Assembly (NCBI GenBank): GCA_010015675.1
Contig: ML976990.1
Coordinates: forward strand, 579,327-643,326
From: Byssothecium circinans
Lineage: Eukaryota > Ascomycota > Dothideomycetes > Pleosporales > Massarinaceae
Reading direction: 5' to 3'
Length of the DNA: 64,000 nucleotides
Shown piece after piece: positions 14,500 to 27,313 of the stretch (position 1 is the first letter of the stretch; every line of letters starts with the position of its first letter). The notes beneath the pieces were generated by a model. It saw only the letters and a list, made by a program, of their open reading frames with translations, was not told the origin of the DNA and did no database searches. Position numbers and translations under genes: made by a program.

Positions 14500-15853
14500 T
14501 GTAAGATTCTAAATAACTAAGTTTTGCTGCTTTAAATTTTACAGAATAGCTTATATATTAGGAATCGTCTGGCGTTGACCCTATGTATGAGGCATTTAAA
14601 TTTCAGCGAGTCCCCAAGGCTAAGTTCCACAGCAGCAACCAAGGTAGCATGAGTGGCACAAGCTTGCTCCACGATGAGTATTGGTGTACTCCATGTTGTC
14701 ACACACGACAAAAATGCAGGTGTGAACTCGCATTCAGTTCTAAGTGCTTATTTAGCCATTCTATATAGTAAACTCTAGCTTGCCGCATACCGCGAGGAAG
14801 CTACGTTCAACGTAAATTAAATAAGCCCTATATAGGGCATCTTTTAAGGCGATTGTAGGTTAATATTATGGTGGAAGGACATGTTCAGCCTAACGTCAAG
14901 CAACGCTCGGGGTGTGACTTTGTGTGTAGCTTCGCGAGGCTTACCAGGCGCAGGACACAACCCACCACAACCAACTATTATTGGGACGACACGGTGGTAG
15001 ACCATACGGAATCTCATCTCTATATTTCGGTAAAAGAAAGCTCAGCACTAATGTTGATAGCAATAAGACTCCAGCATGGTTCTATAACTGCTCGGAGCTA
15101 GAAGTAGGGACCGAAGAGAGAAGTATAATGGGTACGTTGAGTGCGATTAATGCATCGTGGAAATACGGAGAATACGGGCGGCCTTTGGCTATACGGTTAT
15201 ACGCGTCCGGGGCACTATACTGACATGTTAAGTTTGAATTCCCTGGAGTTGTGTATCCGATAAAGTGCACTACTTGACCTAGACTCTTACGGTATCTTGC
15301 GTAAATTCATCATGTCTTACTTGGGCTCTTGCGCTTCCCTTTACCGTGAACATGGTGAGGATCGCGATTCATTCCTTGCTGTTTCTTATTGAGGATTGGT
15401 ACTTTAATTGAAGGCTTTTGTTTGGCGGTCGTTACGATAGGAATGGTGAATGGAGACGCTCGGCGCAGCATTTCCGAGGAGCAAACACTACCATGGTATG
15501 ACTAGAGCGGACGCACTGTTGGAAATGTGCGGCTGTATCCCCATGGGGTAAAATAATTATACATGACGTAGCTCTATATCTTCCCCGCACTAAAGCTTGT
15601 CACACGACAGTGCGCAATAGAACTATTGTTTTTGCGCGACGACTACACCGCACTGGCAACACACCGCTGTTGCGCCGACCTGCCACATTAGGCAATTGCA
15701 TCGTGCACGACAGGCCGCAGATATCCCGACCTAAGAAGAAGCTAGTTTCGGCATTATGGCAGGCGAGCAAGCTGAACTGGTATTAATGAGGGTGAGCGCC
15801 CAAAGAAAGATCCCCCATCTCGGCTCCGGCTTAAGAGGACGCTTCCAATCGTC
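14500..15853. other. Intergenic region of 1.35 kb, no gene seen
   Basis: This is a moderately AT-rich gap between the divergently oriented HET gene and the carboxylesterase. It contains a 14-bp perfect palindrome GCCCTATATAGGGC (about 14825-14838). The short open frames show no family features. The last ~100 bp should be the esterase promoter. Confidence 0.45.
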
Positions 15854-17545
15854 ATGATGTTTTCCGGTACGACTTTACTCTTGTTCTGGTATTTCGGCGC
15901 CTTCGGGTTGGGGCGACCGGTTGACCAAGCTCTGGAAGGGGACTTTGAGCGAGTCGTTACGCTGCCGGGCTACGGATCTTTCCAAGGGACGAGGGTCCTC
16001 ACCAATCTCAGGAACACGACTACTTTCAGTTCACCGGTCGATGCGTGGTTAGGAGTTGAGTACTCTACGCAGCCTGTTGGCGAGAATCGGTTCAAGCCTG
16101 TGACTTGGCCCGAAGCATTCAACGGCACCAAGGCCGCGACCACCTATGGACCAGCTTGCTACCATAACCTTTCTAGCTCGCTTCAGCAGTCGGAGGCATG
16201 CTTGAACATCAACGTATATCGTCCATCTAGTATCTCCCTGGATGAGAAGCTACCCGTTTTCGTTTTCCTCCACGGAGGTTCGTTTGTATCAGGATCAGGA
16301 CGCAGCTTCGATGGCGCATCATTCGTGGCCAAGAGCGCGCAACCGCTGGTTGTCGTGACCGCGCAGTATCGACTAGGCGCGCTAGGAACCCTGCCGGCCA
16401 AATTCATAGAAGAGGAGGGCTTATTAAATCTGGGTATTAGAGATCAACGACAGATGCTGGAATTCATACGGAAATATATTGGAAGCTTTGGTGGAGACCC
16501 CGATCAGATCACCTTAGGAGGCCAAAGTGCTGGGGGGCATTCTGTCGGCATCCACCTGTTCCATAACTACGGTGATGATGCAGGAAAGCCGTTGTTCAGC
16601 CGTGCAATCCTGTCGTCTGGATCAGTAACTGCCCGCGCGTTCCCAGGCGTCGATTATGCACTGTATGAAGCACATGTCTCACAGTTCATGGACTACGTCA
16701 ACTGCCCAACATCGCCGAGCTCTGCTGCGCTGGAGTGCCTCCGGGGCCTGAGCGTCAACGACATCCAATTTATCTCGTCGTCCCTATACAGCGCAAACAA
16801 CTACAACATAACTTGGCCCTGGCAACCCGTCTCACCCGGCCCCATCTTCGAGAAACGCGGCTCCAAGTCTGGCAAAGACGGCACATTCTTCAAAGTCCCG
16901 ATCTTGATTTCCTCAGTCACCGATGAAGGTATCCCCTTCGCTCCACAAGATCTGCGCACCAACACCGAATTTCTCAATTTCTGGAAACGACTCGCACCTG
17001 GCCTAACAGCTGATGATTTGATTGAGCTAGAAAACCTGCATCCCGATCCCATAAACGGCACTGGTCCATACGTCCCGCAGACTCTCACTTACATATCCCC
17101 GCAATTTGAGCGCATCTCGGCCGCATATGGAGACTATAGCTACATCTGCCCCGTCCAAGACACCGCCTCCGTTCTCTCTGCTTCTGGCGCACCCGTCTAC
17201 AAAGCACGCTTCAACACGCCCAACAACTCACCAACCTTCTACGGCGTCCCGCACGGGAGCGACGGGTCGTACTTCAATGGCCAAGCAGGTACTCAGTATC
17301 CTGAGATTTCGGACTTGTATAGTAGCTACTACGCGAGCTTTGTAGTCAGCGGGGATCCGAATACACATGCAATTGAAGGTGCGCCAACGTGGGACACGTA
17401 TGGTGGGGTCGGCGGACAGGAGTTGGTAGTAAATCCAACCGTGCAAGGGACGAAGATGGAGACGGAAGGAGATGATGGTGCGATTAGGATGCAGCAGTGT
17501 GCATGGTGGAGGGATCCGGAGAGGATGAAGAGGCTCAACAAGTAA
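15854..17545 (+). CDS. Secreted type-B carboxylesterase/lipase
   Basis: This is a single-exon gene of 563 aa. The hydrophobic N-terminus (residues 4-20, LLLFWYFGAFG) is a likely signal peptide. The alpha/beta-hydrolase carboxylesterase fold (PF00135) is clear. The oxyanion-hole HGG is at 140-142, the nucleophile elbow GQSAGG has Ser225, the acidic residue is Glu358 in TDEG, and the catalytic His is H467 in GVPHGSDG. Several N-x-S/T sites fit a secreted glycoprotein. It would hydrolyse carboxylic esters outside the cell; the substrate (lipid, phenolic or xenobiotic ester) cannot be told. It stands alone between accessory genes, with no cluster partners in sight. The length is normal for fungal family members (about 530-580). 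Confidence 0.9.
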   Translation: MMFSGTTLLLFWYFGAFGLGRPVDQALEGDFERVVTLPGYGSFQGTRVLTNLRNTTTFSSPVDAWLGVEYSTQPVGENRFKPVTWPEAFNGTKAATTYGPACYHNLSSSLQQSEACLNINVYRPSSISLDEKLPVFVFLHGGSFVSGSGRSFDGASFVAKSAQPLVVVTAQYRLGALGTLPAKFIEEEGLLNLGIRDQRQMLEFIRKYIGSFGGDPDQITLGGQSAGGHSVGIHLFHNYGDDAGKPLFSRAILSSGSVTARAFPGVDYALYEAHVSQFMDYVNCPTSPSSAALECLRGLSVNDIQFISSSLYSANNYNITWPWQPVSPGPIFEKRGSKSGKDGTFFKVPILISSVTDEGIPFAPQDLRTNTEFLNFWKRLAPGLTADDLIELENLHPDPINGTGPYVPQTLTYISPQFERISAAYGDYSYICPVQDTASVLSASGAPVYKARFNTPNNSPTFYGVPHGSDGSYFNGQAGTQYPEISDLYSSYYASFVVSGDPNTHAIEGAPTWDTYGGVGGQELVVNPTVQGTKMETEGDDGAIRMQQCAWWRDPERMKRLNK

Positions 17546-18825: not shown

Positions 18826-20953
18826 TCAGTCCCGCTTCAAGAGCCGAGCCAAGGACTTCATTGAGCGAGCGGTAAGACTCGCCGGCGCCTTTGAACTCCT
18901 CGAGCGGTTGAAGTCAAGCATAACGGCGTACTCCTCCAGAGCGTTGGAAGCTGAATCCTGAGATGAAACATTGTTATTCAGAGACGTTAAAAAGGCATAA
19001 GTCTTGTAGCAGCCATGCTTCAGAGCCAAGGTATTTAGCGTTGCTCCGTCTGGTCGGTAAACAATGTCAAGATTGGCACCTTGCGTGTAGAGCTTTTGAA
19101 CCGTTTGGAGAACATAGTCGTCATCGACAGGTGTACGGGTGAAGCAAGTTTCATGTAGATGTTGCAACCCGCGGCTTTGATATAATCCTTTGTTAACGCC
19201 ACTGTAGGCTACTCTTATGGTGTCGCAGGAATCCCATCCGGCGATGCAGCCCGCTAGAGTCGCTCGATCTTGGCTACTGAGACGGTCGGCGAACGTGAGT
19301 TCAGAGGAGTCGGGAAGCCTCGATAGTATGTCGATGCGCCGCTTCCATTTAGTATTATCCCGCATTAAAGAGCAAAGCCATTCGACCCGAAAATAAGGCG
19401 ATAAGCAGAGCCAGGACAGGAAATTCTTATCATCGTTGTCAGTATAGGCGAAATTGAAACCTTGTGCTTCCAATCTAACCATCAAGCACTCGAAAGCGGA
19501 GCCATGTGACACGCCCGTTCCTCCATTAGACACACATATACAGCCAGCCGGAGCGATGCCCGCAAGGTCGAGATGGAAGAGAAAAGTACGATTGTCGTTA
19601 TCAACACGATGTACGAGTTGTGGGTCGAGAAGTATACTGAGCACTGACAGTGGTGCACCAAGACCAGCAGCGAAAAACAAAGCATTGCATCCTGCGCAAT
19701 CCTGTGCATAGCTGAGAGGAGAACAATCATGGTGCATGAACAAATTCTCTAAAGCTGATTCAAGTGATTGGAGCGTTTCGGTAGCACCCGGAACGATGCC
19801 GTGGTTGACGATGGCTTTTGCTATGCTCTTGTGAATGCAATTGGGTTCCACAGAACAGCATTTATGTACTAATTGCCGGTTCTGGAGACGAATGGAATAG
19901 CGAAAGGTTTGGAAGACGGTGGGAAATGGCCGTATCAGAGGCGGCTCGTATATTCCGTTCGGATCGGGAGGGTTTGGCGAGGGCTCGAGGGCGGAGGCCA
20001 TGTTTGATGTGGCGTAAGAGCTGAATGAATACCGCAATCTTGCGACGCGCTTGATAAGTGTTCTGTCCAGAGACGTGTAACTGAAGCGTCTTAAGATCTC
20101 GGATATTCTGGCACTTTGGTCAGAAAGGACTGATTGCCACTCGTCTGGGTTGTTTTGATGAGGAGAAATAGTAGGGAGTGTGGTCTCTGGTAATTGAAAT
20201 TGTGGAGTGGAAGAAGGTTCATCATGTGCGGCCGGTAAAACCTCATGTTCTATCGTAAATCTTGGCTCTTGTTCTGGGGGCTTCGGATAGGTGGACAATG
20301 CAGTATCCGCAGATGGTATGTCCCAGCTAAAAGATGTGAATGCCTCAATAATACCGAACACGTCCTCGAACGTAACGCATCGTTCGTCCATAGGTCGAAA
20401 GCTGAAGACGGATGGATCGACGGTAATGGAGGGATTCGCCTGCTCTGGTGCTACAGGCGTATTCGATGACATTGTATCGAGAGACCTGTCGTCTTGGAAA
20501 GCTTGCGGAATCCGCTTTGCGCTCTTCGCTTCGAATCTTCGTTGTTCCGAGCCCGCAAGCAGGGTCAAGAATCTTCGTGAAGTTTCTTTATCTGGGGCAC
20601 ACAGTCCTTTCCATCCATCACCAAGTAGCCTTTTCATGTTGTATTGGGCTGTTCGCTCACTATGTGATCAGGTCAGCTTCATATATATGAGAAGCAGAAG
20701 ATACTTACACGTTGGGAGTCGTTCCGCCGCTGAGGACATTGAGAAGCTCGAAGATCTCGCTAAAGTGTAGCCCGCACATGCGAAGAACAACGAGCCTTTT
20801 CAACCAAGGCAGGCTCCATGTTTTCTTTCTACCCCGACCGAGATGCCCATCTTCCTTCAGGGATTTCTTCCTCTTTTTTACTCCTCCTTGCCGTGGCCCA
20901 TCTGTTGCATTTCTTACACGCTTTGGCGCCTGAACTGGGCGAGTAGGGGCCAT
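18826..20953 (-). CDS. Clr5-like/ankyrin protein 1 (module 1 regulator candidate)
   Basis: Exon 1 is 20953-20709 and exon 2 is 20659-18826, with a 49-nt intron, giving 692 aa. The N-terminus is very basic (KKRKKS, RGRKK), a likely nuclear localisation signal. Residues 44-95 (KTWSLPWLKRL, SEIFELLNVL, ERTAQYNMKR) match the spacing of the fungal Clr5 domain (W, K/L-rich helix, a G-x(4)-E turn, then R-T-x-Q/Y-x-x-x-K-R). A disordered middle follows. Ankyrin-like helices begin near residue 400 (GCNALFFAAGLG, FLFHLDLAGI, SAFECLM, NFLSWLC), with degenerate repeats to the end. The paralogue at 22624-25210 has the same exon structure. Both are divergent from a 65-aa peptide gene across a repeat array. 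A role as DNA-binding regulator of the module is inferred, not shown. Confidence 0.75.
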
Positions 20954-21199
20954 TGTGCTGAACGACTGGTGAATGAATTGGAGTCGTCGTCAGAGACACA
21001 GTTCATACAGGAAACTGCGATGGTGGCATTGGAGCGGACGGGAAGGGGCAGGAAGATTACAGTGCTTGAGAAGGACAGTATCGTGGAGTGTACAGAAGCA
21101 ATGTTGTGATGAATAAGAGAATAGGGTATTTAATGTGAATCGGTCAGCTCGGATGTCGCTGCTCAGGGGTTGGTAGAAACAGAAACACTCACCGGCGAC
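20954..21199. promoter_or_regulatory. Promoter-side spacer of Clr5-like/ankyrin gene 1
   Basis: This is the 5' flank of the minus-strand gene. No repeat motif falls within it. The array of CGCAACAATT sites starts at 21200. Confidence 0.3.
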
Positions 21200-21867
21200 C
21201 GCAAGAATTCGGCAGGCAGCATCAACAAGGGTCGCAAGGCTGAGACCGAGGCGCTGTCGAATGGCATGCGGACACAAGACCTGAGGCTGGCGCTTTGACG
21301 ACCTCGACCGCAACAATTGCTCGCGAGACAAGGCGATTTGATTGGCTCGCTTTTCAGTCAGTGCATGACCGCAACAATTCATTCCACGTGACATAAGCGT
21401 GCCTTCAGATGTCTGGGAACAGACCCGCACCGCAACAATTGCTCGCGTGACAAGGCGATTTGATTGGCCCGGTTTTCAATGAGTGCATGACATCAGACCG
21501 TAACAATTCATTGCACGTGACTTAAACTTAACCTTGGAACTTGAGGCGATTCCGGGCACCTGGGAGCAGACCCCACCGCAACTATTGAATCACTGTGTAC
21601 TTCTACTTAATTGGGCTAAGATAACGATGATCCACATATCAATAAAGCGGAGGCGGTAAAAGACAGCATCGGTAGCCCACTATAAGCGCAACAATTGCAG
21701 CTTACTCAGTAGGACTGTTGAGACGACAGACCGCCGAGAGTCTGACCGGCGCAAGAATTGCTCGAGCAGACACAAGAAAAGGTTTCCTGCAGAGGCGGAG
21801 GCGCAACAATTCACACTTGGCTGGGGCAACGCAACAATTCCCACATGGCTGGGGCAGCGCAACAATT
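21200..21867 (+). repeat. Array 1: eleven same-orientation CGCAACAATT-type sites
   Basis: Exact CGCAACAATT occurs at 21309, 21370, 21431, 21687, 21802, 21830 and 21858 (10 bp each). One-base variants lie at 21200 and 21750 (CGCAAGAATT), 21499 (CGTAACAATT) and 21577 (CGCAACTATT). All eleven read the same way, toward the peptide gene at 22046. The last three have a 28-bp period with a shared GGCTGGGGCA spacer. The four sites from 21309 to 21508 sit in two copies of a longer duplication (21309-21430 and 21431-21576). The sequence between sites is otherwise not conserved, which points to the 10-mer as the functional unit, probably a protein-binding site. Confidence 0.85.
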
Positions 21868-22045
21868 CACTGTTTTGATGAACCCCATATGCATAAGAAC
21901 ACCGCTCGCGACCTATATCCAGAAAATCACAATCCCTCTCATCCCAAAAAGTCCAAGCAAACAGCATATCATCGCCGACTTCTCCACTTCGAACCCACCA
22001 CAAATCCCTTCCTCACGACAAGCGAGAGCCAGCCCCGAGAATACT

Positions 22046-22293
22046 ATGGCTCACTCGGGTACGTCTCTCATTCCATCCGGAATAGCAGTGGCTGATTGAG
22101 TTCCTCAGAAACCTTCGAAATGGCCGTCGTCTCCCTCATCTCGAACATCTTGCAAGCGCTCTTCCAGCTCCTCGGCATCATCTTGATCCTGTATTATAGT
22201 CACCGGCCGACTAGGAAAATCTTGAGGACACGCAAACAGGGCTTCGCCGAAAGGAGGGAGGTAAGTTCCTCGTTGACATTACTTTGGCTGTGA
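22046..22293 (+). CDS. 65-aa single-helix membrane peptide 1
   Basis: Exon 1 is only 13 nt (22046-22058), the intron is 50 nt (22059-22108), and exon 2 is 22109-22293: 198 nt and 65 aa. The protein starts MAHSETFEMAVVSL, has one long hydrophobic helix (about residues 10-34) ending in YYSHR, then a basic tail with TRK and RTRKQ. Peptide 2 (25994-26247) has the same 13 + 185 nt exon layout and length and is identical at 26 of the first 37 residues, which strongly supports a real gene. A possible second donor at 22261 (GTAAG) could give an alternative tail. I do not recognise the family. The basic flank after the helix suggests a small membrane-inserted peptide with a cytosolic C-terminus. Confidence 0.75.
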
Positions 22294-22623
22294 GAGTGGT
22301 GGTGACAGTAGCGCAGATACCGTCAAGCGTGCACTCAGCGCGTGAAGATTGATCGAAAGTGGGGCACGGAAGGTAGCTGAGACCGTGTCCGGAATTGTCA
22401 AAGGGCAAAGGACGGCAAAGGATGAAGCCAGGGTGTGAAGCTTGTGGACTCATATACATTGTAGTAGTGGAGAGAAAGTCTGCCTGTCTATCCATTACCA
22501 GCCAGAACAAAAAGAGATCTATGCCACCGAATGCTAGGACCCTTGATCCCCGATGAGTGTGGTGTTGTAAATCCATGCGTCTTGATCAGATCCTCCAAAT
22601 GAGGATGGTGCTACAATGGAGCG

Positions 22624-25210
22624 TCATAGTCCTACATCTCCAGGCATAAAATACCTCCTCACTTGATATGGTCTTGGCTTCGCCTGGAGAACTTCATCGT
22701 ACTCCGCATTCCGCAGCAAAAACGCCGAATCCCGTGCGCGAGTCTCCCACCCTACGTTTGACCTTGACTCTTGCGCCGTTGCACTCGTCGATTTCACCAT
22801 CAAAGGCATGGCCTTGTTGAGAAGGTCCGCAATCGCCCTCATCGATTCACCGGTACGGGTAGCCGATACCCTCGCTTTCCTAGAGGCCTTGTAGTTGCGG
22901 TAGGCGTAATCCAGAGCAGTCGAGCCAGTATCGTCCTTTGGCGAAGTCGAGACACCTAACGAAAGGAGAAAGTCTAAAGTATCCAGGCATAAATTTTCCG
23001 CCGCCCAGATCAAGGGTGTTTTTCCATTGAGAGATGCGGTATCTAGGCTGGCGCACTGATAATACAGATGGCGCGCTATGCGGAGAACGATGGTGTCATT
23101 GCCATCAGGATGGTAAGCAGCGGATAGCATATGGTGCACTCGGGTCCGACCGGAGTGTGTGTATATAGCGGATTTCCATTCCTCAAGAGTAGGAGAGCTC
23201 GCACCCAAGATGGTTTGAACACTTTCTGTCAGTAGATTTCGTCCGTATGAGTTCAGACGGTCAACGAATGACAGCCCGGTGGTATCGAGAGTCCCCGCTA
23301 AAGTGACGACGAGATGCACCCATTCTACATCGCCCTCCATGAGTCTACAGAGCCACTCGATGTTGAAATGTTGAGATGCACACAGCCAGCTCAGGAAACT
23401 CTTATTGTCCTTGTCAAGATGCTCGAAATCGAAGCAACGTAGTTTCAGGAACTTCATGAGGCACTCGAATGCGGAGACGTGCTTGCATCCGAGGATGGGG
23501 TAACAGTGGCAGGCTTCTACTTTAGCGATGCCCGACAAGTCGAGGTGAAAGAGGAAAGACTGGCCGTTTATATCCACAGCGTTGACGTCGTCGGTCTTGT
23601 GGAGGATGAATTCGAGCACGTCCAGGCTTGCGCCTTGACTGGCAGTAAAGAATAGCGCATTTCGTCCTACCACGTCGCGACTGTTGATCATGCTTAACAT
23701 TGTGTGCCGTTTCTTTTCGATCGATGGGCCATCTGCTGGTGTATCAAGTAGAAGGATTGATTCTGGGGAATTACGGACAATCGTCTCGATAATCAGCTCG
23801 TGAATGCATTTTATGGCGCTGAGCTTGCTCTTGTTGTCAAGCCTAAATTTATTTTCGAGGGTTGAACGGCTTTCGTTTCCTGTAAGACAGCATAGTGTTA
23901 CTTCGTGATGTCGTCTCTGTTTGTCGAGTGCATGGACATCCAAAATCGTGTCGGGTCGGCGGTGTTTTTCGGTCGGTTCTGGTGATAACCACTCTGATGG
24001 TAATGTGAATTCCGTACTCTGGAAATGGGAAAAGGATGCCTCAGAAACCGAGCGGCGAGTTGACGTGCCAAAAGAGCTGACAGAATACCTTCTCTTCAAC
24101 CCCGTTTTTATTAACGAGATGAGAGAAGCCGTGTAGCCCTGGCCTTGTAGATATCGATAGATCTTGGCACTTGCATTTGAACCGATGGATCGTGTTTCGT
24201 CGCTTGGCTGTGTGACGTTTCTCAGAGAAGTGTTTTCTGTCCCATCTGAACGCTCGATCGATGTTGACATGCAGAGATCAGGAGCTGGGCCCTCAATAGT
24301 AATATCCATGTGGTGAGAATGTGTTGTCCCTTTCTCTGTCGCAGCACCGGTAATGTCGTATGCTTTTGGATGCATCATGGAATCCTTGTTTGAGGGTGTC
24401 CAAGGCCATCCGGCAACGTCAGGCAGGTCGCTATTATGCCCCCAGTCATCAAAAGTCGTGGAAAGCTCAGACTGGAAGTCAGCATGGAGATCCAGATTCT
24501 TAAATAAAGACCCAAAGGCATCTGAAGAGGTTGCCGGGTACTGGAATGTCCTGTTTGTAGCGAACGGGGACAAAATCGTCTCTGTCGTGTTGGTCACCAT
24601 ACATGTACAAGTTTCACTGGCAACACAAAAACATGTCGGAGAAAGTCCTCGGTGGGCGATTTGACCTTTGTGGTAGGGAGTAGCCGTGGATGCTGGAACA
24701 GAGGTCGTGGCATGTGAACGTATTACACTGGAATATTCGCTTCCGAGCGGTTGTGGGAATTGCATCGATGGCGATCGGTCACATTCATGCTGTTCGGCTG
24801 TCTTAAGAAAGTGGAGGCGTTGCCGCATGATCTCTTTGTTGTTGTACGCACGCAACTTGGCGAAATCTTTCCCAAGCATCCTTTTCAGGTTGTCTTGAGC
24901 AGTACGCATTCTGCACACATTAGTAAGTGAGAATCCATACAAGCGTCCATTGCACTTACTTCTTAGATGTTTTCCCGTTGCTCAGTATATTGAGCACCTC
25001 CAGAGCGTCCCGCATGGGTATACCGCAGCCGCACAGCGTGATGAGCCTTTTCAGCCAGGGTTTACCCCAAGTATTTTTTCGGCCTCGACCCATGTGCGCG
25101 TCCTCTCTCGGCGACTTTTTGCGTTTTTGGACCTTGCTGCCGTGTGCAGACCGACGTGCTCTGTGTTTGGTGGCATGGTTCTGATTCTGAGGTGGACGAG
25201 TCGGAGCCAT
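22624..25210 (-). CDS. Clr5-like/ankyrin protein 2 (module 2 regulator candidate)
   Basis: Exon 1 is 25210-24960 and exon 2 is 24910-22624, with a 49-nt intron at the same codon phase as paralogue 1, giving 845 aa. It has the same basic start (MAPTRP..., KKRKKS equivalents, RGRKNTW), the same Clr5-like block at residues 46-97 (PWLKRL, ALEVLNILSNGKT, MRTAQDNLKR), and a long disordered Ser/Thr-rich middle. Ankyrin units lie near 495-535 (GRNALFFTASQGASLDVLEF) and 714-760 (NGKTPLIWAAENL). The shared core FLFHLDLSGI, SAFECLM, SFLSWLC and WLCRLM links it to paralogue 1. The C-terminal ankyrins are better preserved here. It is convergent with peptide gene 1 and divergent from peptide gene 2. The molecular function is unknown; the Clr5-like domain suggests DNA or chromatin binding. 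Confidence 0.75.
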
Positions 25211-25691
25211 TGTGTCGTTGAAATATCAAGAGTAGCACACTAACAAGCTGAAATAGGGAGGTAAACCACCATAGGGGTATATAAAAGTCTTAAGTGTAGG
25301 GACTGCGCATGATCATGCGGCCGGAGAGATAAAAAAGGTGTAGGAGTTCTCCTGCATTCATGGTGGTCCCTACCCTATCTGGCCACGGCAGCAGATGGCC
25401 CTTGCGGTTTCAAAAGCGATGATTAGGTATAACGCGTCATGTAAGAACGCCACAGCGCAGTATTTCAACTACTGTCAATCATGTTATGAGAGCGAGAGTT
25501 TCCTGGTGTGGGGGCGGTAAAGTCCTACTAGAGAGACGTTTCTCGTATCATGTATGCTGTGGAACACTCTGACTCGCTTGAAACTCTAAGGGCTCCTCAA
25601 TTCTCCCCACTTTCGGCGTGTATCATCTTGGCGTGGCCTCTTATTGGTGCGGGTCATGCGGACCGTGAGAATACAATAGACGGTGAATCGA
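25211..25691. promoter_or_regulatory. Promoter-side spacer of Clr5-like/ankyrin gene 2
   Basis: This holds the upstream flank of the minus-strand gene, with a TATA-like GTATATAAAAG near 25277. No array motif or gene is seen here; array 2 starts at 25692. Confidence 0.35.
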
Positions 25692-25860
25692 CGCGACAAT
25701 TGTGAAGTACACAGACGTATTTCGGTCCGAATAGGCGCGACAATTCAATATGAAGAGACGCGATAATTCATCATGACGAGACGCAACAATTGACTGGGAC
25801 GAGTCGCGACAATTCCCAACGAAGAGACGCAATGATTGACCATGGCGAGACGCGACAATT
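25692..25860 (+). repeat. Array 2: seven CGCRACAATT-type sites, six at exact 23-bp period
   Basis: Sites start at 25692, 25736, 25759, 25782, 25805, 25828 and 25851. From the second onward the spacing is 23 bp each time; the first is 44 bp away. Sequences are CGCGACAATT (four), CGCGATAATT, CGCAACAATT and CGCAATGATT. The 13-bp spacers mostly end in GAGA or a near variant, but their middles differ. All sites point toward the peptide gene at 25994. The 10-mer is the same as in array 1 with A or G at position 4, although the two arrays have different periods. Confidence 0.9.
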
Positions 25861-25874
25861 GCACTCACAGGGAG

Positions 25875-25880
25875 TATATA
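25875..25880 (+). promoter_or_regulatory. TATA box of peptide gene 2
   Basis: TATATA in GGAGTATATAGCC lies 14 bp after the last array site and 114 bp before the peptide start codon, as expected for an upstream activating array over a core promoter. Confidence 0.5.
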
Positions 25881-25993
25881 GCCAGGAATGACTTTCGCGC
25901 AGGTCCCAACACCATAGCAATCCGGAATCTTCACAACCTCCCCAAAGCCACGAGCACCGACACTGCCTCACAGAGCAATCCAGGAAAGCGAGG

Positions 25994-26247
25994 ATGGCAA
26001 AATCAGGTAATGCCCCAATAGCCGTCGCCTATAAGTATCGTGCCTGACGAGCAGTCTTCAAGAAACTTTCGGAATGGCGGTCACCAGTCTCGTTGCCAAT
26101 ATTCTACAAACGCTACTCCAGCTTCTTGCCTTGCTTTTGATCGTCTATTACAGTCATCGTTCGCTTGGAGGTGGAAATACGAAGGGAAATGCTGGCGGAG
26201 CTGGCGGAGCCGGCAAATGTAAGACGGGTCGAAGGTTTTCCGCCTAG
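25994..26247 (+). CDS. 65-aa single-helix membrane peptide 2
   Basis: Exon 1 is 25994-26006 (13 nt), the intron is 26007-26062 (56 nt), and exon 2 is 26063-26247: 198 nt and 65 aa, the same as peptide 1. It starts MAKSETFGMAVTSL, with a hydrophobic helix (about residues 10-34: NILQTLLQLLALLLIVYY) ending SHR, then a Gly-rich tail (GGGNTKGNAGGAGGAG) and a basic end. The acceptor TTCAAG was chosen over an earlier CAG because only it restores the MA-x-SETF-x-MAV start shared with peptide 1. The C-terminal tails of the two peptides differ, so the conserved part is the first 37 residues. The function is unknown; candidates are a membrane-active effector of cell death, a sensor, or a secretory micropeptide. 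Confidence 0.75.
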
Positions 26248-26469: not shown

Positions 26470-27313
26470 TTATATCAGAGCCCCTGCATTCATGATAACC
26501 TCTTCCTTCCGCCGCCGGCTCTCCAGCTTGGCCTCTTTCCGCTCCCTTTCCTTCTCTTCAACTTTCCTGCGCGCCGCCTTCTTTGCCTCATGAGCTGCCT
26601 TGGCCCTCTTGTATTCCTCGTACTCTTCCTGCTTCTTCTTCTCTTTCTTCATATCCTTCAGAATTTGCTTGTGCTCGGTGGATGTGAGACGCCATGGCTT
26701 CGACAAGACGTCTTTCTTGAACTTTGCCATTTCCGACCAAGCCTGCGCTTCCTCATCCGTGGTCCGAACTATCCAAGCCCTCTTCAATTCTATCTGTTTG
26801 GCCCCTCGAAACTCTGATATTGTGCCCTTCGCCTTGACGACTGTCCCGATATCCACTTGCTCGCCGCCGATCATAACCTCGAACACGCCTAAAGCACTGA
26901 CAACGTCGACATTCCCGACTGTTGTATTTGAAGGATGCTTAGCGGCATTGTATATGTCCGCGGTAAGTCGTACAATCTTCAACTCGATAGTCGCTCCGCT
27001 CCCATCGTCGATGGTTAAGACGGTGTATTTGAGGTTGATGTCATCGATCGCAACGACGACGCCAACGAGACGTACATAGCAGATGGGGTGGTTGAGATGG
27101 AAGTATATGTGCTGGCCTGAGTGGGACGTGTCAGCGCGCATCGGCGGTGTCCAAGTATACGTGGCGATACTTACTCTGAAAAGCGGGTTCTGATCGCAGC
27201 GCCTGAACATCGGCGGCAGTCAGCTTCACCCAGTCCTTGTATGTATGTGATTTCGGAAAGCAGTATGCCGGCCAAATTCGATAATCCTGCGTCGTTGGTT
27301 GATGTATGGACAT
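26470..27313 (-). CDS. Telomere-capping CST subunit Stn1 (OB-fold)
   Basis: Exon 1 is 27313-27175 and exon 2 is 27116-26470, with a 58-nt intron, giving 261 aa. The N-terminus (RIWPAYCFPKSHTYKDWVKLTAADV) and the OB-fold strands after the intron (HPICYVRLVGVVVAID, YTVLTIDDGSGATIELKI, VDIGTVVKAKGTISEFRGAKQIEL) match the Stn1 OB domain (PF10451). The C-terminal ~80 residues form a highly charged Lys/Glu helix. Stn1 binds the 3' overhang with Ten1, caps chromosome ends and recruits polymerase alpha for C-strand fill-in. The first ATG of the frame at 27313 was chosen because homology begins about 10 residues later. The length is near that of the short filamentous-fungal Stn1 form, which lacks winged-helix domains. 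Confidence 0.85.

Follow-up and report, generated by a model that had tools for sequence, protein, structure and literature searches.

Clr5 of fission yeast is described as a factor of chromatin silencing that works in the histone deacetylase Clr6 pathway (accessible text of PMC7608984), and Clr5-type genes otherwise appear in passing remarks or listings (PMC7608984, PMC12258605, PMC5919735), where the accessible parts of these papers name neither DNA targets nor partner genes; neither the accessible text of a survey on the effector domains of fungal NLRs (PMC9815663) nor that of a review on cell death in fungi (PMC12881547) contains the term Clr5. The fungal HET-S/NWD2 pairs signal through a shared amyloid motif and not through a DNA array, as stated in the available portion of PMC3321046, and the spore killers include Spk-1, a protein of 134 amino acids (aa) with two predicted membrane segments, and another killer gene, rfk-1 (PMC8092558, accessible text). 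In this article we analyse a window of 64,000 nucleotides (nt) from the 48.4-Mb, 109-contig genome assembly (G000) of Byssothecium circinans (Pleosporales, Massarineae; the window is G000:C14:579327-643326), in which two neighbouring units follow one plan. In each of them a minus-strand gene for a large protein (A or B) stands head to head with a plus-strand two-exon gene for a short peptide with a predicted membrane segment (p1 or p2), and an array of the 10-mer CGCRACAATT lies in between. We propose, giving the proposal an even chance of being right, that the two units are duplicates of a regulator-operator-effector module that is complete in itself, where in each unit the ankyrin protein would read the neighbouring array and control the peptide. 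Together with other ankyrin genes of this fungus that follow a similar plan with another peptide, the units point to gene pairs of regulator and effector that may not have been described before; no published description of this layout was found, also in the literature on ankyrin proteins and bidirectional promoters, in a search of the accessible literature, to which most subscription papers and preprints do not belong.

The anatomy of the two units was borne out as it had been predicted originally, including the coordinates and frames, the 49-nt introns of the large genes, the 13-nt first exons of the peptide genes and their 198 coding nt (65 aa and a stop), which are alike in p1 and p2. Gene B, when spliced, encodes exactly the protein deposited as 'ankyrin [Byssothecium circinans]' (P0001), with identity at 845/845 residues. 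The product of gene A consists of a conserved N-terminal domain followed by a diverged ankyrin-type C-terminus. The intergenic regions that contain the arrays measure 1,092 nt between A and p1 and 783 nt between B and p2. A and B are 29% identical over 814 columns and they are the sole members of the regulator family in the genome (full-length search at an expectation value (E) of at most 0.001; search with the N-terminal piece at E of at most 10). The large protein is conserved in other species, since the protein database holds relatives in Massarina eburnea (P0002) and Periconia digitata (P0003). No other part of it is as well conserved as the N-terminal domain, with 66-77% identity among A, P0002 and P0003, compared to 36-45% for the ankyrin region and 24-36% for the middle part. 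The N-terminus of B is an outlier (48-51% identity), its ankyrin region is not (37-42%).

The same-direction arrays were likewise confirmed: the exact 10-mer occurs 12 times in the window, against a mean of 0.40 and a maximum of 3 in 100 shuffles. When one mismatch is allowed, up to 10 sites fall within 700 nt, compared to at most 2 after Markov shuffling of the window (20 shuffles), and for both intergenic regions none of 60 shuffles attained the count of the commonest word. The number of sites given for each array in Table 1 allows up to two mismatches, and every counted site is on the plus strand; left out of the count were minus-strand matches with two mismatches in the B intergenic region, at 25642, 25686 and 25730, two of which share positions with sites on the plus strand. 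Averaged over all 18 sites, the information content is 1.47 bits for a core column (ten columns) and 0.25 for a flanking column (24 columns). The contrast is smaller in array B alone (1.23 versus 0.65 bits) because its units are tandem copies. Tandem units of 28 and 23 base pairs (bp) make up parts of the arrays, therefore the sites inside one array are not independent of each other, and this limit applies to the difference at position 4 as well, where A is found in all 11 sites of array A and G in 5 of the 7 sites of array B (P = 0.0025, calculated over non-independent sites). The odd N-terminal domain, that of B, and the odd sites, those of array B, fall on the same side. Single sites are not enriched in the genome (145 versus 164 for the reversed control), and site pairs with starts 20-50 nt apart number seven genome-wide, six of them in these two promoters and one on contig C79, with no array in the 9 kb examined around it (best count 3). 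Regulators, peptides and close-set sites therefore occur together here and, as far as the genome was searched, almost nowhere else.

In p1 and p2 a short N-terminus is followed by a single predicted membrane segment (residues 14-32; mean hydropathy of 2.21 in p1 and 2.32 in p2) and then by a basic tail, which lacks conservation. Of the first 37 residues, 26 are identical. For this core of 37 codons the nonsynonymous divergence (dN) is 0.217 and the synonymous divergence (dS) 2.59 (proportion of synonymous differences, pS, 0.726), where dS is near saturation and the dN/dS ratio is therefore a rough one; third positions account for 20 of the 35 differences (P = 0.003). This is the pattern that a translated peptide under purifying selection should show. 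No other member of the peptide family was found in the genome by six-frame searches with p1 and with p2 (E 10), and the protein database gave no relative either (16 candidates, none at E 10), which is expected if such two-exon genes are unannotated, or if they are absent elsewhere. The length of p1 is uncertain: the possible second intron listed in Table 1 would give a peptide of 55 aa, and the equal length of p1 and p2 may be a coincidence.

The N-terminal domains had been called Clr5-like in the original prediction, and this label turned out to be premature. The Pfam profile PF14420 did not match A or B at full length (E 10), nor any of the four N-termini of A, B, P0002 and P0003 (E 10). Comparison by hhalign with eight Clr5 domains of the same genome gave a probability of 0.1% (both alignments being shallow), and the best score by hmmsearch --max was 1.5 bits, where shuffles attain 5.1-8.7. 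Of the features of Clr5 genes, the fit is limited to the phase and the place of an intron: a phase-2 intron lies near the middle of the domain in A, in B and in the eight Clr5 genes of this genome that were examined for it (all of the nine but C30; donors placed by eye), a criterion seen in this genome and standing outside the Pfam definition of Clr5. The Clr5 protein on contig C15 starts with MAPTRRSKIP (G000:C15, about 874218), and A, B and P0002 have a similar start, MAPTRP.

It was clearly established that B has an ankyrin tail, as predicted (Ank_2 E 1e-9; confident repeats at residues 497-784; ankyrin chains on top in Foldseek), and P0003 has one too (E 1.1e-10), with P0002 (E 3e-4) remaining under the curated cut-off. 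For A, which has no Pfam ankyrin match, the predicted ankyrin tail is a probable one by homology, A being aligned to B at 37% identity across the ankyrin columns. Profile scans of full-length A and B and of the N-termini matched no DNA-binding family, and no NACHT, NB-ARC or other nucleotide-binding Pfam family was matched by A and B (E 10) or by P0002 and P0003 (E 1).

The plan extends beyond this one duplicated locus. A PF14420 search of the genome returned at least nine Clr5 genes above the cut-off, and short hydrophobic frames were sought in the 3.5 kb upstream of each, a screen that is unspecific by itself. In one scanned frame per gene, ankyrin repeats were detected in four of nine, and three of these four Clr5-ankyrin genes (C15, C46 and C78) have a membrane microprotein frame head to head with them, 0.5-0.9 kb from the gene start. 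These three host genes have frames of more than 1,000 aa with clear ankyrin repeats (Ank_2 E 4e-29, 8e-37 and 2e-47, respectively). The fourth, C4 (E 1e-12), showed no such peptide in the upstream screen, and neither did any of the five Clr5 genes with no detected ankyrin repeat, in the scanned frames of which there was a weak sub-cut-off TPR match (C10, C7, C30), a tri-helical domain (C22) or nothing (C20). The microproteins are of 42 residues at C15 and 40 at C78; the C46 frame has 116 residues from its ATG, and the first 44 were used for comparison. The sole other genome match of the C15 peptide is the C46 peptide (E 0.047; reciprocal 0.056), and a search with the C78 peptide (C78a) added two loci, C78:25654 (C78b) and C20:711025. 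The five microproteins are one family, each scoring 30.5-46.5 bits in leave-one-out searches, a score that none of 300 block-shuffles reached in any case. Membership of p1 and p2 in this family was rejected, for 129/300 (p1) and 122/300 (p2) block-shuffles scored at least as high. No frame of 150 aa or more was found in the 5.5 kb from the start of the C20 microprotein onwards. Upstream of the C7 Clr5 gene, head to head with it, there is an 81-aa frame that begins with a hydrophobic stretch and contains several cysteines (L038:3986-4393, minus; G000:C7 near 1195000), which by its predicted sequence looks like a small secreted protein.

Repeated words were found in some of these promoters. At C15 there is a 14-bp tandem array of five same-strand copies (0/60 shuffles; 7/60 when both strands are tested), the C78 promoter has six CAAAATCTG-like sites over both strands (0/60; same-strand test 15/60), and GGTGCTTTCT stands four times upstream of the C78b peptide (0/60), or six times counting both strands (0/60). 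No repeated word passed the shuffle test at C46 and C20 (260 nt upstream in the latter), and five of six control Clr5 promoters showed nothing, with C10 borderline (1/60, same strand). Since these word tests are mixed, the array half of the generalisation is weaker than the half that concerns the head-to-head peptides.

According to the proposed mechanism, the large protein would combine a putative DNA-binding helical N-terminal domain with a C-terminal ankyrin sensor, and it would bind the same-direction sites of its own array, which precedes the peptide gene's TATA-like element by a short distance. Binding would set the transcription of a one-pass membrane microprotein, and this microprotein would be the membrane-side output. 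Fungal activator sites are usually located just upstream of a TATA-like element, and the arrays stand in this usual place; therefore we lean, modestly, to activation over repression. The idea of a regulator-operator-effector unit, already put forward in the original prediction, has thus gained from the co-location, from the conservation of the N-terminal domain and from the recurrence at three of four Clr5-ankyrin genes, while the filing of the regulator under Clr5 was not supported by the profile tests.

Other explanations can account for parts of these results. The arrays could be read by some other factor, e.g. by an HMG-box protein, and the gene of the ankyrin protein would then just lie nearby or be a further target of that factor; AACAAT or GACAAT stands within each site, a sequence that resembles an HMG/Sox core, the array lies in a bidirectional promoter that could serve both genes, and neither A nor B matched a DNA-binding family. 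A general factor, however, should have clustered sites at its other targets, and close pairs exist at one other place only, the C79 locus, with no array in the 9 kb examined there; moreover the divergence of the sites accompanies that of the N-terminal domain, so that we regard this explanation as unlikely, if a serious one. It is also conceivable that the arrays arose by tandem repetition and are neutral, and that the two units go back to the plain duplication of an old segment. The tandem units and the side-by-side position of the two units fit with this, but the core of the sites is conserved in contrast to the flanks, the duplication is old, judged by the divergence of A and B, and yet the sites and the peptide cores persist, and unlinked genes follow a similar plan with peptides of another, unrelated family. 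We see little chance for a neutral origin.

Two further alternatives retain the link between the ankyrin protein and the peptide and give it a different meaning. In one of them the two form a feedback pair: the tail of the microprotein would bind the ankyrin domain and tether the regulator at the membrane until a signal arrives, and through the array the regulator would control its own tether. The peptide and the ankyrin protein always occur together here, and the layout of p1 and p2, with the short N-terminus, one membrane segment and basic tail, would suit such a tether; nevertheless it is the membrane segment that is conserved in p1 and p2 and not the tail, and a feedback pair appears to us quite improbable. 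In the other, the peptide would be a poison that damages membranes, and the ankyrin protein would silence its gene except where death is wanted, as in allorecognition, meiotic drive or defence. The peptide is short and hydrophobic, the genes are lineage-restricted and duplicated, and known fungal killers include Spk-1, a small protein with predicted membrane segments (PMC8092558, accessible text). Against this, two copies under purifying selection fit a housekeeping role equally, and an array upstream of the TATA-like element would suit activation better than silencing; a poison with its restraint is thus improbable in our judgement. The module in which the ankyrin protein acts through its own array on the peptide gene remains our preferred reading.

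Table 1. Positions of the features discussed (plain numbers refer to the window; G000 positions give contig and coordinates in the assembly)
Feature	Position	Strand	Remarks
Gene A, 692 aa	20953..18826	minus	exon 1 20953..20709, exon 2 20659..18826
Gene A intron, 49 nt, phase 2	20708..20660	minus	splice sites by consensus and homology
Array A	21200..21867	plus	11 sites, CGCAACAATT type, 7 exact, all directed to p1
TATA-like element of p1	21914..21919	plus	consensus match only; 46 nt past last array A site
p1, 65 aa	exon 1 22046-22058, exon 2 22109-22293	plus	intron 22059-22108 (50 nt)
Possible second intron in p1	22261..22308	plus	by eye: donor GTAAGT 22261, AG 22307-22308, then immediate stop
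Gene B, 845 aa, ankyrin repeats	25210..22624	minus	exon 1 25210..24960, exon 2 24910..22624
Gene B intron, 49 nt, phase 2	24959..24911	minus	by coordinates and frame check
Array B	25692..25860	plus	7 sites, mostly CGCGACAATT type, 5 exact to CGCRACAATT, all directed to p2
TATA-like element of p2	25875..25880	plus	consensus match only; 14 nt past last array B site
p2, 65 aa	exon 1 25994-26006, exon 2 26063-26247	plus	intron 26007-26062 (56 nt)
C15 locus	G000:C15:873185-874466		Clr5-ankyrin gene and head-to-head microprotein
C46 locus	G000:C46:55491-56295		Clr5-ankyrin gene and head-to-head microprotein
C78 locus	G000:C78:18808-19596		Clr5-ankyrin gene and head-to-head microprotein
C78b microprotein	G000:C78:25654-25767		2.5 kb past end of C78 Clr5-ankyrin main frame
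C20 microprotein	G000:C20:711025-711129		same five-member family

The two units have a carboxylesterase gene (Pfam E 6e-81) on the plus strand at 15776-17545 of the window and, at 26470-27219 on the minus strand, a gene with a match to the telomere-capping protein Stn1 (Pfam E 1.9e-10) as neighbours.

A wider reading, held here tentatively and with more doubt than the proposal for the two units, is that ascomycetes possess an undescribed class of compact modules, each made up of an ankyrin protein with a DNA-binding head, of true Clr5 type or of the separate type of A and B, and a one-pass membrane microprotein, the two genes being transcribed divergently from either side of an operator array of their own. 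Taken as one claim, it would also mean that the modules duplicate as units, that head and operator change together, that unrelated microprotein families have been recruited, and that the modules serve as local sense-and-respond switches, possibly in cell death, allorecognition or defence. If this is true, the targets of Clr5-type genes could be read from the genome, the operator and the membrane microprotein being next door, and microprotein genes overlooked by annotation would become predictable. The pair of A and B offers a natural test of a joint change in the DNA-binding head and the operator.

Compared with the known systems, the units resemble the spore killers in that these are small, lineage-restricted proteins as well; p1 and p2 differ from them with their 65 aa, one predicted membrane segment and no known killing or drive, and a regulator-array layout is not mentioned in the accessible text on spore killers (PMC8092558). 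With the HET-S/NWD2 pairs the units share the gene of a small protein, a membrane-acting one in HET-S and a putative one of this sort here, that stands beside a large repeat-bearing receptor-type gene and is inherited with it as a pair (PMC3321046, available portion), whereas A and B have no matched nucleotide-binding domain. The five-member microprotein family of the same genome is similar to p1 and p2 in being short with one hydrophobic segment, and three of its five members are head to head with a Clr5-ankyrin gene, a fourth being located 2.5 kb past the end of one; in contrast to p1 and p2, its frames are single-exon as read, needing no 13-nt first exon, and p1 and p2 score against it like shuffles. 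Finally the Clr5 proteins (PF14420), although A and B fail their profile, have in common with A and B a short N-terminal domain (putatively helical in A and B), often followed by repeats, and a phase-2 intron at a like place.

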